Of a DNA stretch of 64,000 nt, positions 27,477 through 32,114 are shown piece by piece. The stretch lies in the NCBI RefSeq assembly GCF_900199215.1, contig NZ_FZQA01000001.1, positions 124,001-188,000 of the forward strand, given 5' to 3'. The notes below the pieces were generated by a model. That model saw nothing but the letters and a program-made list of their open reading frames with translations, was not told the DNA's origin and did not search any database. Source of the DNA: Amphiplicatus metriothermophilus (GTDB lineage: Bacteria; Pseudomonadota; Alphaproteobacteria; Caulobacterales; Parvularculaceae). Each line of letters opens with the position of its first letter. Position 1 is the first letter of the stretch. The position numbers were made by a program, and so were the translations under genes.

Positions 27477-27977
27477 GCCATAGGCCAATTGGAAGTAAGG
27501 CGTTTGCGGAAAGCTAAGCAGCCCGCCGGCCGCGATCGCGACCGCATAGGGAATGTCCTTGGGCTGCTGATGCAGCCGCATGATCCAGGGCGCGTGGGCG
27601 TAGATCGGCAGAAGCGGCGTCTTGCGGAAAAGAATGAGCGCGACGGCGAGCGCCGCCCCCGCGAAGGCCATGTTGACGAGAAACGCGCCGAGACCGGACA
27701 GCCCGATCCACGGCGCGATCGCCGCGAGCAGCTTCGCGTCGCCCCCGCCGAGAATGCGGAAGGCGAACAGCGCGAAGCCGACGGCGAGCGCCGCCGCGGC
27801 GAGCAGGAGCCCTTCGAGATAAAGCGCCGCCGGCGCGCCGAGCGCGAGCCCGCCCGCGAAATAGGCCGCGAACAGGACGACGGAGATCCAGTTCGGAATC
27901 TTGAATTCGTAAAGGTCGTTCGCCGCCGCGATGAGAAGCGCCGCAGGAAAGATCGACAGCATCATCAGCGGAACCAT
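27471..27977 (-). CDS. cpaA: prepilin peptidase CpaA (A24 family)
   Basis: 168 residues and about five to six membrane helices, the short form of type IV prepilin peptidase that lacks the methyltransferase half. The two catalytic aspartates are in ANDLYEFKIPNW and GGGDAKLLAA. It removes the leader from Flp pilin and the pseudopilins. The start at 27977 (MVPLMMLSIF) has GAGGAGG about a dozen bases upstream. Repeat cluster 1 begins only 27 bp before the start, so any cpaA promoter lies inside or beyond the repeats. Confidence 0.92.
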   Translation of the reverse strand: MVPLMMLSIFPAALLIAAANDLYEFKIPNWISVVLFAAYFAGGLALGAPAALYLEGLLLAAAALAVGFALFAFRILGGGDAKLLAAIAPWIGLSGLGAFLVNMAFAGAALAVALILFRKTPLLPIYAHAPWIMRLHQQPKDIPYAVAIAAGGLLSFPQTPYFQLAYGG

Positions 27978-28003
27978 GCCGCGTTTCCTCCTCTTCGACC
28001 CTG

Positions 28004-28447
28004 CGTCATCCCGGGCGCGCTGCGGCGCGAAGCGCCGCTGCGCAGACCCGGGACCGCTCTCGACCCGCGCTCCCGTCATCCCGGATGCCGCGCGGCATGA
28101 AATGCTGCGCCGCTGGTCCGGGACCGTCATCCCGGGCGCGCTGCGGCGCGAAGCGCCGCTGCGCAGACCCGGGACCGCTCTCGACCCGCGCTCCCGTCGT
28201 CCCGGATGCCGCGCAGCATGAAATGCTGCGCTGCTGGTCCGGGACCGTCATCCCGGGCGCGCTGCGGCGCGAAGCGCCGCTGCGCAGACCCGGGACCGCT
28301 CTCGACCCGCTCCGAGCCCGGCCGGACCCGATCCGGGGCCTGCATTGCATCGCTGCGCGCTGCAATGCGCCCGGGAGGACGGAGAAAGCCGGACCCGATC
28401 CCGGGTCTGCGGCGCGTCATTCCATGCCGCGCCGCGCCCGGGATGAC
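28004..28447. repeat. palindromic repeat cluster 1 (seven 43-bp units)
   Basis: Units between CCCGGG-type boxes: A at 28010-28052, B at 28080-28122, A at 28131-28173, B at 28201-28243, A at 28252-28294 (all in reverse polarity), then C at 28333-28375 and D at 28400-28442 (forward polarity). The conserved spacer 28295-28332 separates the two polarities. CGTCAT precedes the left end and ATGACG follows the right end. Each unit is exactly 43 bp and can fold into a hairpin. It lies between cpaA and the flp terminator; open frames across it are repeat artefacts. Confidence 0.93.
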
Positions 28448-28492
28448 GCAGGGGCCCGGGGCGACGTTTCGTCTCCCAATACCCCGCGCGGA

Positions 28493-28507
28493 TTAACGGG
28501 CCGTTAG
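28493..28507 (-). promoter_or_regulatory. CtrA-like site / short palindrome upstream of cpaA
   Basis: TTAACGGGCCGTTAG matches TTAA-N7-TTAA at 7 of 8 positions and contains the palindrome TAACGG-G-CCGTTA. It lies between the flp terminator and repeat cluster 1, about 515 bp upstream of cpaA. It is a candidate for driving the cpaA-tadC transcript; no clear -10/-35 is seen. Confidence 0.3.
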
Positions 28508-28534
28508 ACATGACCCGAAAATCGCCCCAAACGA

Positions 28535-28560
28535 AAAAGGAGGCCCGAAGGCCTCCTTTT
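28535..28560 (-). terminator. flp terminator with UUCG tetraloop
   Basis: An 11-bp perfect stem, AAAAGGAGGCC paired with GGCCTCCTTTT. Read on the minus strand the loop is UUCG closed by C-G, the extra-stable tetraloop, followed by a T-rich tail (TTTTTCG counting the stem end). It begins 22 bp after the flp stop codon, so most flp transcripts should end here rather than read into cpaA. It could also work on the plus strand. Confidence 0.85.
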
Positions 28561-28581
28561 CACTTCCAACAAAAATACGTC

Positions 28582-28761
28582 TTACGGCGTGTTGGCATTT
28601 GTGAGCTCGTCACCGATGGTGGTGAACGTCGTGTTAAGATTTCCGCCGACAGTCCTAACTGCCACGATGATCGCGACGGCGATCAGGGCGGCGATCAGGC
28701 CGTATTCGATGGCCGTGGCGCCTTCCTCGTCTTTGAGAAAGCGGTTGATGAGAGCTTTCAT
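28582..28761 (-). CDS. flp: Flp family type IVb pilin
   Basis: 59-residue major pilin. MKALINRFLKDEEGATAIEYGLIAA shows the short basic leader and the Flp cleavage motif; processing by CpaA is expected after Gly in DEEG, leaving ATAIEYG... with Glu5 and Tyr6 of the mature pilin, the Flp hallmark. A hydrophobic helix follows and the C-terminus ends LTNANTP. The ATG at 28761 has AGGAG eight bases upstream. It has its own terminator and is separated from cpaA by repeat cluster 1, so it is probably expressed at a different level from the machine genes. Confidence 0.96.
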   Translation of the reverse strand: MKALINRFLKDEEGATAIEYGLIAALIAVAIIVAVRTVGGNLNTTFTTIGDELTNANTP

Positions 28762-28818
28762 GAGTCGACTCCTGCTTGCACGAGACTCTTGCTTGCACCG
28801 CTGAATGGGTTGTTCAGC
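28762..28818 (-). promoter_or_regulatory. flp leader: 15-bp direct repeat, three GANTC sites, small hairpin
   Basis: Immediately before the flp ATG are two near-identical 15-mers, 28767-28781 and 28784-28798 (GACTCxTGCTTGCAC on the plus strand, one mismatch, 17-bp period). The proximal copy contains the ribosome site. Three GANTC sites (28762-28766, 28767-28771, 28784-28788) fall in 27 bp. Further upstream, GCTGAA (28800-28805) pairs with TTCAGC (28813-28818). GANTC is the CcrM methylation site of alphaproteobacteria. No convincing -35/-10 pair was found in the AT-rich stretch near 28885-28905. Confidence 0.45.
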
Positions 28819-28960
28819 CCCCACCCAGACTGCCCGAACTATGATCGCGAGGCGTAAAGAAAGCCTGAAACGATAGAGCCGCAATCCGTTAAATTTTTAT
28901 TGTGAAAGTCGGTAAACGAACGGTTAGCGGCGCATAATGTTCGTGTACGGATCTTCGTGG

Positions 28961-29252
28961 TCCCGGATGCTGCGCGCCTCCCGTCGTCCCGGGCGCGCTG
29001 CAGCGCGAAGCGCTGCTGCGCAGACCCGGGACCGCTCTCGACGCGCTCCCGTCATCCCGGATGCTGCGCAGCATGAAATGCTGCGCTGCTGGTCCGGGAC
29101 CGCTCTCGACCCGCTCCGAGCCCGGCCGGACCCGATCCCGGGTCTGCGGCGCGTCGTTTCACGCCGCGCCGCGCCCGGGATGACGGAGAGGGCCGGACCC
29201 GATCCCGGGTCTGCATTGCATCGCTGCGCGCTGCAATGCGCCCGGGATGACG
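28961..29252. repeat. palindromic repeat cluster 2 (four units plus a fragment)
   Basis: A B-type fragment begins at 28961. Full 43-bp units follow: A at 28988-29030 and B at 29056-29098 (reverse polarity), then D at 29137-29179 and C at 29204-29246 (forward polarity), with the same central spacer (29099-29136) as cluster 1. It lies between the flp upstream region and the 3' end of the GIY-YIG gene. Together with the flp leader it fills the 516 bp without protein-coding genes. Confidence 0.92.
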
Positions 29253-29277
29253 GAGAGGGCCCGGGCGCCGGATCGCG

Positions 29278-29568
29278 TCACCGCCAGCCGAGCAGCGGAT
29301 ACAGATCTTCCCAGCCCGGATTCATCTCTTCGATCAGCCTGACCTTCCAGGCCCGCCGCCAGCGCTTGATGCGTTTTTCTTCGCTGATGGCGTCCGTTAT
29401 GCGCTGATACTCGGCGTACCAGACGAGCCGGTCCAGGCCGTAACGCCGGCAGAAGGCCGAGCCCCGCCCCTCCCGATGCTGATGGATGCGCCGGGCCAGA
29501 TCGGCGGCCACTCCCGTGTACAGGACGCCGCGGGGCTTGTTCGCCAGCATGTAGACATAGCCGGGCAT
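29278..29568 (-). CDS. GIY-YIG single-domain nuclease family protein
   Basis: 96 residues, essentially only a GIY-YIG domain: first strand YVYML (4-8), second strand VLYTGVA (15-21), Arg26 in DLARRI, the metal-binding Glu in ISEEKRIKRW (about 63-64) and an Asn near EMNPGW. Small proteins of this YhbQ/UPF0213-like type are widespread and mostly uncharacterised; some nick DNA. The gene lies between palindromic repeat clusters 2 and 3, 31 bp and 52 bp from their nearest edges. No other nuclease partner domain is present. Confidence 0.88.
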   Translation of the reverse strand: MPGYVYMLANKPRGVLYTGVAADLARRIHQHREGRGSAFCRRYGLDRLVWYAEYQRITDAISEEKRIKRWRRAWKVRLIEEMNPGWEDLYPLLGWR

Positions 29569-29620
29569 TGCGAAAGGTTACGGTCTGCAAAACCAACCGT
29601 CACCCCGCGCCTGATGCTCC

Positions 29621-29915
29621 CCGTCGTCCCGGATGCTGCGCAGCATGAAATGCTGCGCTGCTGGTCCGGGACCGCTGTCCGCCCGCTCCGAGCCCGGCCG
29701 GACCCGATCCCGGGTCTGCGGCGCGTCGTTTCACGCCGCGCCGCGCCCGGGATGACGGAGAGGGCCGGACCCGATCCCGGGTCTGCGGCGCGTCGTTTCA
29801 CGCCGCGCCGCGCCCGGGATGACGGAGAAAGCCGGACCCGATCCCGGGTCTGCATTGCATCGCTGCGCGCTGCAATGCGCCCGGGATGACGGAGAAAGCC
29901 GCGCCCGGGATTACG
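29621..29915. repeat. palindromic repeat cluster 3 (four units plus a partial end)
   Basis: B at 29628-29670 (reverse polarity), then D at 29709-29751, D at 29776-29818 and C at 29843-29885 (forward). A truncated right end follows, with box CCCGGG at 29904-29909. The central spacer is 29671-29708 with small changes (ACCGCTGTCCGCCC). The truncated end runs into the terC gene and supplies its stop codon. This cluster fills the 342 bp between the GIY-YIG start and the terC stop. Confidence 0.92.
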
Positions 29916-30684
29916 GAGAAGGCCGCGCCGTCTTGCGCCGCGCGCGGATGTTGAGAAGCTCCACCGCCAGAGAGAAGGCGATGGCGAAATAAAGATAGCC
30001 GCGCGGAATGTGAAAGCCCGCCCCGTCGGCGACCAGCGCGACGCCGATCAGCAGAATGAAGGCGAGCGCCAGCATCTTCGTGGTCGGGTGCTTCTCGATG
30101 AATGCGGCCAGCGGCTCGGCCGAGACCGCCATGACGATCGTGGAGAGCACGACCGCCGCAATCATCACGATCAGGATGTTCGTCAACCCCACCGCCGTGA
30201 TGACGCTGTCGAGGGAAAAGACGATGTTGATGACCATGAGCTGGACCAGCACGCCGCCGAGCGTGGACCTGGCCCCGGCTTCCTCATGGGCGACGCCTTC
30301 CACCGCGGCGTGAACCTCGACGGTGCCCTTCCACAACAGGAAGAGCCCGCCGGCGAGCAGCACCAGATCCTTGGCGGTCACGGATGCGATCGCCTCGCGG
30401 GCGTGCCCGTCCCCGCCCGCCAGAAACGCGGCCAGTCCCTGCGGCAGCGTGAACAGCGCGTTCCTGTCGAGGCCGACGATCCAGAAGATCGCGCCGAGCA
30501 TGGCGATGCGCAGGATCATCGCGCCCCACACCCCGAAGCGCCGGGCGAAGACGTGCTGTCTGTCCTTCAGCTTCGAGACGGCGATCGAGATGAAAAGCAG
30601 ATTGTCGATGCCGAGAACGATTTCGAGGAAGGTGAGCGTCGCAAGGCTGCCCCAGAAAGCGGGCTCCGCGATGAGATCGGCCAT
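29911..30684 (-). CDS. TerC family integral membrane protein
   Basis: 257 residues with about seven membrane helices. FLEIVLGIDNLLFISIAV carries the acidic LGIDN motif and VFSLDSVITAVGL the second acidic helix, both typical of TerC/Alx metal (manganese) exporters. The start at 30684 (MADLIAEPAF) has GGAGGGG upstream and is preferred to 30705. The C-terminus ends ARPSP, and its last codons and stop are made of the flank of a palindromic repeat. It lies between repeat clusters 3 and 4. Confidence 0.9.
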   Translation of the reverse strand: MADLIAEPAFWGSLATLTFLEIVLGIDNLLFISIAVSKLKDRQHVFARRFGVWGAMILRIAMLGAIFWIVGLDRNALFTLPQGLAAFLAGGDGHAREAIASVTAKDLVLLAGGLFLLWKGTVEVHAAVEGVAHEEAGARSTLGGVLVQLMVINIVFSLDSVITAVGLTNILIVMIAAVVLSTIVMAVSAEPLAAFIEKHPTTKMLALAFILLIGVALVADGAGFHIPRGYLYFAIAFSLAVELLNIRARRKTARPSP

Positions 30685-30765
30685 TTTCCCCTCCGGACCA
30701 TTCAATAGCGGCTATAGCGCGATTTGCCGCCAAGGGGACCGCCCGGATTTCCCCGCGCCGCGTCA

Positions 30766-31058
30766 TTCCGGATGCTGCGCATCTCCCCGTCGTCCCGGAT
30801 GCTGCGCGGCATGAAATGCCGCGCTGCTGGTCCGGGACCGCTCTCGACCCGCTCCGAGCCCGGCCGGACCCGATCCCGGGTCTGCGGCGCGTCGTTTCAC
30901 GCCGCGCCGCGCCCGGGAGGACGGAGAAAGCCGAACCCGATCCCGGGTCTGCATTGCATCGCTGCGCGCTGCAATGCGCCCGGGAGGACGGAGAAAGCCG
31001 AACCCGATCCCGGGTCTGCATTGCATCGCTGCGCGCTGCAATGCGCCCGGGAGGACGG
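30766..31058. repeat. palindromic repeat cluster 4 (four units plus a fragment)
   Basis: A B-type fragment is followed by B at 30794-30836 (reverse polarity), then D at 30875-30917, C at 30942-30984 and C at 31009-31051 (forward). The central spacer 30837-30874 matches that in clusters 1 and 2. The flank after forward units here reads AGGACGG instead of ATGACGG. It fills most of the 398 bp between the terC start and the hemH stop. Confidence 0.92.
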
Positions 31059-31082
31059 CGGACACCGGGAGGACGGGCGCGG

Positions 31083-32114
31083 CTACGCCCACCCCGCGAG
31101 CTCGCGCCGGGCGAGCGACTCGAGAAGCGCGACCGCCTCGGGCGCGTCGTTGAGGCAGGGGATCGCGTCGAACGCCTCCCCGCCCGCGGCGAGAAAACGC
31201 GCACGCCCGGCGACGGCGATTTCTTCAAGCGTTTCGAGACAGTCCGCCATGAAGCCCGGCGTCATCACGGCGAGCCACCTCGTCCCTTCGCGGGCGAGGC
31301 GCTCGATCGTCTCGTCGGTCGCCGGACCCAGCCATTTCTCCGGCCCGAAGCGGGACTGAAAGGCGATCGGCGCGGCCTCCTCGGACCAGCCCATCGCCGC
31401 GCGCAACAGACGCGCCGTCTTCTGGCAGTGGCAGTGATAGGGATCGCCCGCCGCGAGGAATCGTTCCGGCAGGCCGTGAAAGGAAATAATCACGCGCTCG
31501 GGCGTCCAGCCCAGTTCGGCGAAACGCCGGCGCGCGCCCGCGGCGAGCGCTTCGATATAGGCCGGCTCGTCGTGAAAAGCCGGCGCAAGGCGCAGCGCCG
31601 GCTGCCAGCGCATGGCGCGGACCGCCGCGAAGAGCGCATCGTTCACGCTCGCCGTGGTCGAGGCCGAATATTGCGGATAGAGCGGCAGAACCAGAATCCG
31701 CCCTGCGCCCGCGGCCCGCATCGCTTCGAGCCGCCCGGCGAGCGAGGGCGCGCCGTAGCGCATCGCCCAGTCGACGAGAACGCCCGCGCCCAGCCGCGCC
31801 GCAAGCGCCTCCGCCTGCCGCCGCGTGAACCAGCGCAGGGGCGATTCGCCCTCCTCCCGCCAGATCGCCTTGTAGGCCCGCGCCGTTCTGGCGGGGCGAA
31901 CGTTGAGGATCACGCCGTAAAGAAGCGGCAGCCACAGCGCGCGGGGATAATCCACCACCCGCCGGTCGCTCAGAAACTCCGCCAGATAGCGCCGCACCGC
32001 CCCCGGCGTCGGCGCGTCGGGCGTGCCGAGATTGACGAGCAGAACGCCCGTGCGCGGCGGGGCGATCGCCGGATGGCCTTCGGGCAGGTTCCGGTTCTGT
32101 GAGGGGTCGTTCAT
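31083..32114 (-). CDS. hemH: ferrochelatase
   Basis: Inserts ferrous iron into protoporphyrin IX in the last step of heme synthesis. Motifs: LLVNLGTPDAPTPGAVRRYL at the N-terminus, PLYPQYSASTTAS, and the catalytic-His region IISFHGLPERF, with the conserved Glu in AVMTPGFMADCLETLEEI. 343 residues is typical. CHCQKTA and a late Cys (PCLND) are present, but a 2Fe-2S cluster is not assured. The gene ends 31 bp from the last repeat unit of cluster 4. Confidence 0.96.
   Translation of the reverse strand: MNDPSQNRNLPEGHPAIAPPRTGVLLVNLGTPDAPTPGAVRRYLAEFLSDRRVVDYPRALWLPLLYGVILNVRPARTARAYKAIWREEGESPLRWFTRRQAEALAARLGAGVLVDWAMRYGAPSLAGRLEAMRAAGAGRILVLPLYPQYSASTTASVNDALFAAVRAMRWQPALRLAPAFHDEPAYIEALAAGARRRFAELGWTPERVIISFHGLPERFLAAGDPYHCHCQKTARLLRAAMGWSEEAAPIAFQSRFGPEKWLGPATDETIERLAREGTRWLAVMTPGFMADCLETLEEIAVAGRARFLAAGGEAFDAIPCLNDAPEAVALLESLARRELAGWA

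Follow-up and report, generated by a model that had tools for sequence, protein, structure and literature searches.

A stretch of 64,000 nucleotides from Amphiplicatus metriothermophilus (contig NZ_FZQA01000001.1, positions 124,001 to 188,000 of the forward strand; hereafter the window) carries a family of 43-bp palindromic units, and it raises the question of what these units are and what spreads them. The original prediction, made from the letters alone, described 19 units in four clusters and compared them with the repetitive extragenic palindromes (REPs) and bacterial interspersed mosaic elements (BIMEs) that are moved by REP-associated tyrosine transposases (RAYTs); a GIY-YIG gene lying between clusters 2 and 3 was absent from it. 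The explanation that we favor, with a probability of about 0.6, is that the units are long-hairpin REPs of the CGTC class with a standalone GIY-YIG nuclease as their partner, encoded in the densest array.

The count of 19 units was confirmed, 18 of them by a pattern search for the exact 43-bp spacing between positions 28010 and 31051 and the last one by reading (Table 1). They are grouped at 28010-28442, 28988-29246, 29628-29885 and 30794-31051 and comprise four arm types (A, 4 units; B, C and D, 5 units each), and a search for the box pattern with complementary arms gave no further occurrence in the rest of the window. In one polarity, the unit reads CCCGGG, 3 nt, a 12-nt arm, a 3-nt loop (TTC, TGC or TCC, hence T-N-C), a second 12-nt arm, 1 nt and CCCGGG, followed by A-N-GACG. 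This end constitutes a CGTC tag on the opposite strand, and the unit therefore has a polarity; the minus strand carries types A and B, the plus strand types C and D. The predicted layout of 8-nt arms around an 11-nt loop thus described the outer part of a longer arm, and it missed the 3-nt loop and the tagged polarity. The whole unit is composed of an 8-bp outer stem containing the CCCGGG boxes, an internal loop and an inner 12-bp hairpin, and in the window units the stem is followed by a 3-nt tail, CGG or CGC by reading. Each window unit has a single arm mismatch at a place typical of its type (position 5 in A, 3 in B, and 9 in C and D); only the B unit at 28080 has a second one. In a whole-genome search, all 19 matched their own covariance model with E values of 6e-16 to 9e-13, which holds by construction, as the model was built from these units. 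A search of the window against Rfam gave no match.

The original prediction also held that the arms keep their pairing while their sequence changes. In the window alignment, in which 13 of the 19 rows are distinct, 93.1% of the cells were paired, and the covariation score was 0.339 versus 0.152 in shuffles, none of 500 being as high; pairing fell to 24-45% when the partner was slid. Compensatory changes were found within types as well: the A unit at 28988 has A-T where its type has G-C, and the B unit at 30794 has G-C in place of A-T. Double-change pairs in the window did not exceed shuffles (8 versus a mean of 6.5, with 87 of 500 as high), and neither did further pair types (10 versus 14.7). 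Among 30 distinct units of the same genome outside the window, 88.3% of the arm cells were paired and 52 double changes were counted (19.7 on average in 300 shuffles, with a maximum of 30); for 62 distinct units from near and distant relatives, the values were 87.1% and 124 (shuffle mean 48.4, highest 61). It should be noted that units outside the window and in relatives had been preselected for complementarity at 8 of the 12 arm positions, which inflates both pairing percentages, and that pair types did not exceed shuffles in these two sets either. Arm positions 1, 2, 6, 7 and 10 are nearly invariant, whereas positions 3-5, 8, 9, 11 and 12 vary. In the 42 distinct ungapped units of the genome, the outer eight pairs were formed in 96.7% of cells, the first of them frequently as G-T or G-C in place of A-T. 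Collectively, the units are one structured family with a fixed frame, as had been proposed; the outcome that would have refuted the prediction, arm types that fail to covary, was not observed. The four arm types hold in the window and are a local count, since sampled relatives add 62 distinct ungapped units to those 42; likewise, the view that selection and not simple copying was at work is only half borne out, most units of one type being near-identical copies.

Template switching at imperfect palindromes can alter both arms together, and the paired changes could have arisen in this way instead of by selection, which would make the family neutral debris. The tandem arrays show local recombination, and the double changes within the window, being no more frequent than in shuffles, fit this explanation too. 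However, certain arm positions are repeatedly mismatched (T-C or C-C at position 9, A-A at position 5) instead of being corrected, and switching leaves the tag, the spacer and the nuclease association described below unexplained, so that we regard it as very improbable.

A covariance-model search of the genome (3.16 Mb in 18 contigs, 98.4% complete) revealed no fewer than 81 units, distributed over 34 loci and including the 19 of the window; this is a lower bound, because 150 of 11,775 candidates were scored. Units were also present at the extreme ends of three contigs (G000 C8:12-133, C17:12-133 and C10:270706-270827), indicating that the assembly breaks inside units and that the copy number is underestimated. 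Of 43 neighboring pairs less than 150 bp apart, 22 had their tags outward, 20 were in tandem and 1 had its tags inward. In 19 of the 22 tags-outward pairs, 31-33 bp separated the 52-bp model matches, which corresponds to a common spacer of about 32 bp and a pair about 136 bp long, while tandem neighbors were separated by -1 to 20 bp. Sequence conservation drops sharply past the tag. Of 76 units of this genome, 62 have GACG as their last four bases, which reads CGTC on the opposite strand, and 5 have GACA. The tags-outward pair is therefore likely to be the unit of dispersal; the units would disperse mainly as such pairs and amplify locally in tandem.

Long-hairpin loci outside the window are also flanked by G-rich heptamer runs, (GGGATTR)n, for example at L268, L270, L271, L283 and C9:1060-1204 (L395). 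Such runs lie within 120 bp of a unit at 12 of 36 loci, at 4 of them on both sides, and always read towards the unit, never in the opposite direction. Nineteen of the 22 matches to the heptamer pattern in the genome fall within 60 bp of a unit, and the other three, on C9, flank a different palindrome; the reversed-pattern control is not independent here. A stricter pattern had no match in 61 loci of relatives.

The family is unevenly spread among relatives. Matches at an E value of 0.01 or lower were found in 38 of 61 genomes, the present one included; within the genus, five genomes gave 93, 34, 33, 84 and 54 matches and four gave 0, 0, 1 and 1, counts that include opposite-strand readings. 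At the level of the class, where 15 candidates per genome were scored, 12 of 385 genomes (again including our own) had a match at 1e-6 or lower, across 11 genera.

To which class of repeats do the units belong? A 2013 survey by Di Nocera, De Gregorio and Rocco (PMC3733652) treats CGTC repeats as one of two REP superfamilies, describes them as not associated with transposase genes and leaves open what spreads them. The CGTC REPs of that survey (PMC3733652) share with our units the CGTC (or TGTC) tag at one end, an 8-bp stem (8-9 bp in the survey) beginning with A-T, frequent tags-outward pairs (predominant in the survey), a mainly alphaproteobacterial distribution and the lack of a RAYT. They differ in having a loop of 4-5 nt, compared with 31 nt between the stems here, folded as the 12-bp hairpin, in a 3-nt tail that is mostly CCA, and in negligible numbers of tandem units, which make up 20 of 43 close neighbors here (PMC3733652). 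Since tag and stem fit but loop, tail and tandem arrays do not, we call the units a variant: judged by sequence, they are a long-hairpin variant of CGTC-class REPs, and their membership in that class is highly probable. The survey dropped repeats with unusual loops and mentions CGTC-1 loops of other lengths in Bradyrhizobium (PMC3733652), so the long-hairpin variant may have been glimpsed before.

The analogy with GTAG REPs, BIMEs and REPINs (paired REPs) holds for the architecture, namely short imperfect hairpins in opposite-orientation pairs and clusters. It breaks down at the tag, which is of the GACG/CGTC type and not GTAG, and at the predicted link to RAYTs, because the Y1_Tnp profile (PF01797) matched nothing in the nine genomes of the genus, the present one included, five of which are element-rich. 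RAYT was rejected as the mobilizer within the genus on these two grounds. One could still suppose that a RAYT mobilized the units and that its gene was lost or acts from elsewhere, in keeping with the hairpins and opposite pairs and with PF01797 matches in 10 of the 61 genomes of the wider set, including the element-carrying G009, G017, G030 and G034; in view of the unmatched genus and the different tag, we give this explanation almost no credence.

The densest array holds a GIY-YIG gene on the minus strand that encodes 96 aa, with a whole tags-outward pair on each side. The assignment follows from a PF01541 match in a profile search of the genome (E = 1.6e-13), from an alignment of 40 homologues in which G19, R27, H31, E64 and N83 are invariant, and from its sole sequence match in the PDB, UPF0213 protein BH0048 (1zg2; E = 2.1e-6), which was also the best fold match (32% identity in the fold alignment, TM-score 0.57) to a predicted structure with a mean pLDDT (per-residue confidence) of 96.3. 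The product is thus predicted to be a standalone GIY-YIG domain with an intact active site; it had no NCBIfam match. The other two GIY-YIG matches in the genome are UvrC (a 650-aa frame) and a 142-aa frame.

The neighborhood of its homologues links this gene to CGTC repeats. Around the best 80 of 256 homologues, 75 of which are alphaproteobacterial by title or lineage, hairpins with a CGTC tag and a perfect 8-bp stem reached a density of 1.56 per kb within 250 bp, compared with 0.20 at 250-500 bp and 0.02-0.05 beyond; such a hairpin lay within 500 bp of 35 of the 80 genes and on both sides of 23. Among standalone genes in the family, 13 of 59 had a CGTC hairpin within 300 bp, 9 of them on both sides, while there was none at 25 UvrC control loci and none beside 27 genes of two other standalone GIY-YIG clades sorted by motif. 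None of 10 genes in a UPF0213-like clade had CGTC hairpins beside it. Of 96 standalone genes, 10 had a long-hairpin unit at a distance of 300 bp or less (5 of 59 in the family and 5 of 37 in distant carriers; G000, G006, G008, G009, G020, G417, G199, G182, G075 and G285). The expectation was 0.39 plus 0.15, together 0.54 (joint P of about 3e-10), if each match is treated as an independent site. Four of the distant genes were chosen because they had already been seen close to units, and the distant figure is accordingly based on 37 genes out of 43 listed. The long-hairpin model had no match at the 25 UvrC loci. In a literature search of the available library, no listed paper connected GIY-YIG genes with CGTC repeats.

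A case of a gene moving with its repeats comes from Erythrobacter sanguineus DSM 11032 (NZ_FRDF contigs), in which a GIY-YIG gene and the two CGTC REPs that enclose it, tags outward, form a block of about 400 bp that occurs in at least seven dispersed copies at unrelated sites (L078, L099, L113, L123, L126, L132 and L137), a lower bound drawn from the best 80 loci. Between -80 and +310, mean pairwise identity is 0.85-1.00 in each 15-base bin; well outside this range it is 0.25-0.42. On the left, conservation extends about 30 bp beyond the tag. The window array differs from this block in having a whole pair on each side of the gene. A tags-outward pair equals the Erythrobacter block minus its gene, which suggests a relation of autonomous and non-autonomous elements.

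Several observations weigh against a nuclease partner of the long-hairpin units. The Erythrobacter REPs have 4-nt loops, and the step from them to the long-hairpin variant is therefore an analogy. Of the 96 standalone genes, 86 have no long-hairpin unit within 300 bp, and 2 of the 10 associated genes are damaged (an internal stop in G009, a truncation in G285). Not one of the 84 matches in G007 is within 2.5 kb of either of the two standalone genes there; G138 carries elements with GIY-YIG only as UvrC; G027, with 18 matches, lacks a listed standalone gene; and a single weak PF01797 match exceeds the cut-off in the element-rich G009. Finally, long-hairpin flanks are spread over several nuclease lineages instead of one. 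Elements might persist after the loss of their enzyme, or an enzyme encoded elsewhere might serve them in trans.

On the nuclease tree, the type of flank was clustered (32 changes versus 57 in shuffles, none of 200 being as low), although most forks were weak. Five family genes have long-hairpin flanks, and four of these fall in one clade with an F-C motif (SH-aLRT branch support 98). We do not propose a fixed pairing of this clade with long hairpins, as 22 further members have short-loop flanks and for 11 no flank was found, and as the fifth family gene (G020) and the distant carriers lie elsewhere on the tree. G182 carries at least 12 listed standalone GIY-YIG genes, 8 of 11 examined having CGTC hairpins of several loop types beside them (L336-L338 and L342-L349), a natural set of nuclease-repeat pairs. 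At L358 (G075), the sequence directly upstream of a GIY-YIG gene holds four long-hairpin units of the same orientation, of which three are spaced at 209-bp steps.

From this association and the Erythrobacter blocks, it appears probable that the GIY-YIG nuclease acts on the hairpins, and the chances that it also mobilizes them seem to us about even. In such a mechanism, the nuclease would recognize the tag and the stem base in single-stranded or extruded DNA and nick there, repair or replication of the nick would copy pairs into new sites, and pairs without a gene would derive, as non-autonomous elements, from a REP-gene-REP cassette.

All genes in the vicinity of the clusters are on the minus strand, and a pilin gene (Flp_Fap) lies between clusters 1 and 2. 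At the TerC-hemH junction, the site of cluster 4, six relatives have a short sequence without units, the gene pair not being in the list for the other two of eight; at the prepilin peptidase-pilin junction, the length of cluster 1 is missing in all eight, four of which were read. Because the junctions in relatives lack them, clusters 1 and 4 are most simply explained as insertions in this lineage. The pilin and TerC genes are about 1.1 kb apart here (window 28448-29911) and about 410 kb apart in G004 (G004:C33), which places the nuclease gene and clusters 2 and 3 at a rearrangement breakpoint.

The Ssn nuclease of Neisseria reportedly uses repeats as recognition sites that limit or steer the uptake of single-stranded DNA, and a 2025 paper is reported to describe Ssn proteins as GIY-YIG nucleases that cut single-stranded repeats, with a Neisseria repeat as target. 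The present units might similarly be sites and not passengers, spread by other means and kept as sites. This would account for the same association of GIY-YIG genes with hairpins and for the flanked pilin gene, and Neisseria dRS3 repeats are CGTC-1 elements according to the 2013 survey (PMC3733652). The seven dispersed Erythrobacter blocks show the gene moving with its repeats, however, and the pilus neighborhood of the array is not conserved, given the distant pilin and TerC genes of G004; we consider this possibility rather unlikely.

The units might also serve mainly as RNA hairpins that stabilize or end transcripts at gene ends, the nuclease being incidental. One unit of each type folded as RNA at -33.3 to -40.1 kcal/mol (z scores of -5.0 to -7.9), with none of 200 shuffles as stable in any of the four cases, and the shared strand of the surrounding genes fits such a role. 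On the other hand, positions 27900-31200 contain two terminator-like sites (a hairpin plus a T run), no more than in shuffles, and neither falls in a unit, so that we rejected the units as intrinsic terminators. Spacer, tag and nuclease association would also be left unexplained, and we judge an RNA role of this kind improbable.

Table 1. Repeat units and the nuclease gene in the window (window coordinates)
Feature	Cluster	Position	Strand	Remark	Basis
Unit, type A	1	28010..28052	-		pattern search
Unit, type B	1	28080..28122	-	two arm mismatches	pattern search
Unit, type A	1	28131..28173	-		pattern search
Unit, type B	1	28201..28243	-		pattern search
Unit, type A	1	28252..28294	-		pattern search
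Unit, type C	1	28332..28374	+	first box CCGGGG	reading; covariance-model match 28330-28381
Unit, type D	1	28400..28442	+		pattern search
Unit, type A	2	28988..29030	-	compensatory pair change, arm position 8	pattern search
Unit, type B	2	29056..29098	-		pattern search
Unit, type D	2	29137..29179	+		pattern search
Unit, type C	2	29204..29246	+		pattern search
GIY-YIG nuclease gene, 96 aa	between 2 and 3	29278..29568	-		PF01541 (E 1.6e-13), ORF, invariant residues in 40 homologues, predicted fold
Unit, type B	3	29628..29670	-		pattern search
Unit, type D	3	29709..29751	+		pattern search
Unit, type D	3	29776..29818	+		pattern search
Unit, type C	3	29843..29885	+		pattern search
Unit, type B	4	30794..30836	-	compensatory pair change, arm position 8	pattern search
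Unit, type D	4	30875..30917	+		pattern search
Unit, type C	4	30942..30984	+		pattern search
Unit, type C	4	31009..31051	+		pattern search

As reported, Ssn resembles the system described here: the nuclease is small, stands alone and has a GIY-YIG domain, and its repeat family comprises CGTC-1 (dRS3) elements among others. A difference is that the repeats here are long hairpins. If Ssn does act in this way, the pairing of a GIY-YIG nuclease with CGTC repeats is already known in Neisseria, and what is new is then the long-hairpin family, its spread and the evidence from the blocks. A GIY-YIG gene that recurs among CGTC repeats and has multicopy blocks of its own is a candidate for spreading them. 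We tentatively suggest, at somewhat less than even odds, that CGTC-class REPs represent the termini and the gene-less derivatives of small bacterial mobile elements powered by a GIY-YIG nuclease, an enzymatic route to REP populations second to and unrelated to that of RAYTs, with the long-hairpin family as one radiation scattered over many families of one class. If this is true, REP populations would have arisen at least twice, by unrelated enzymes.

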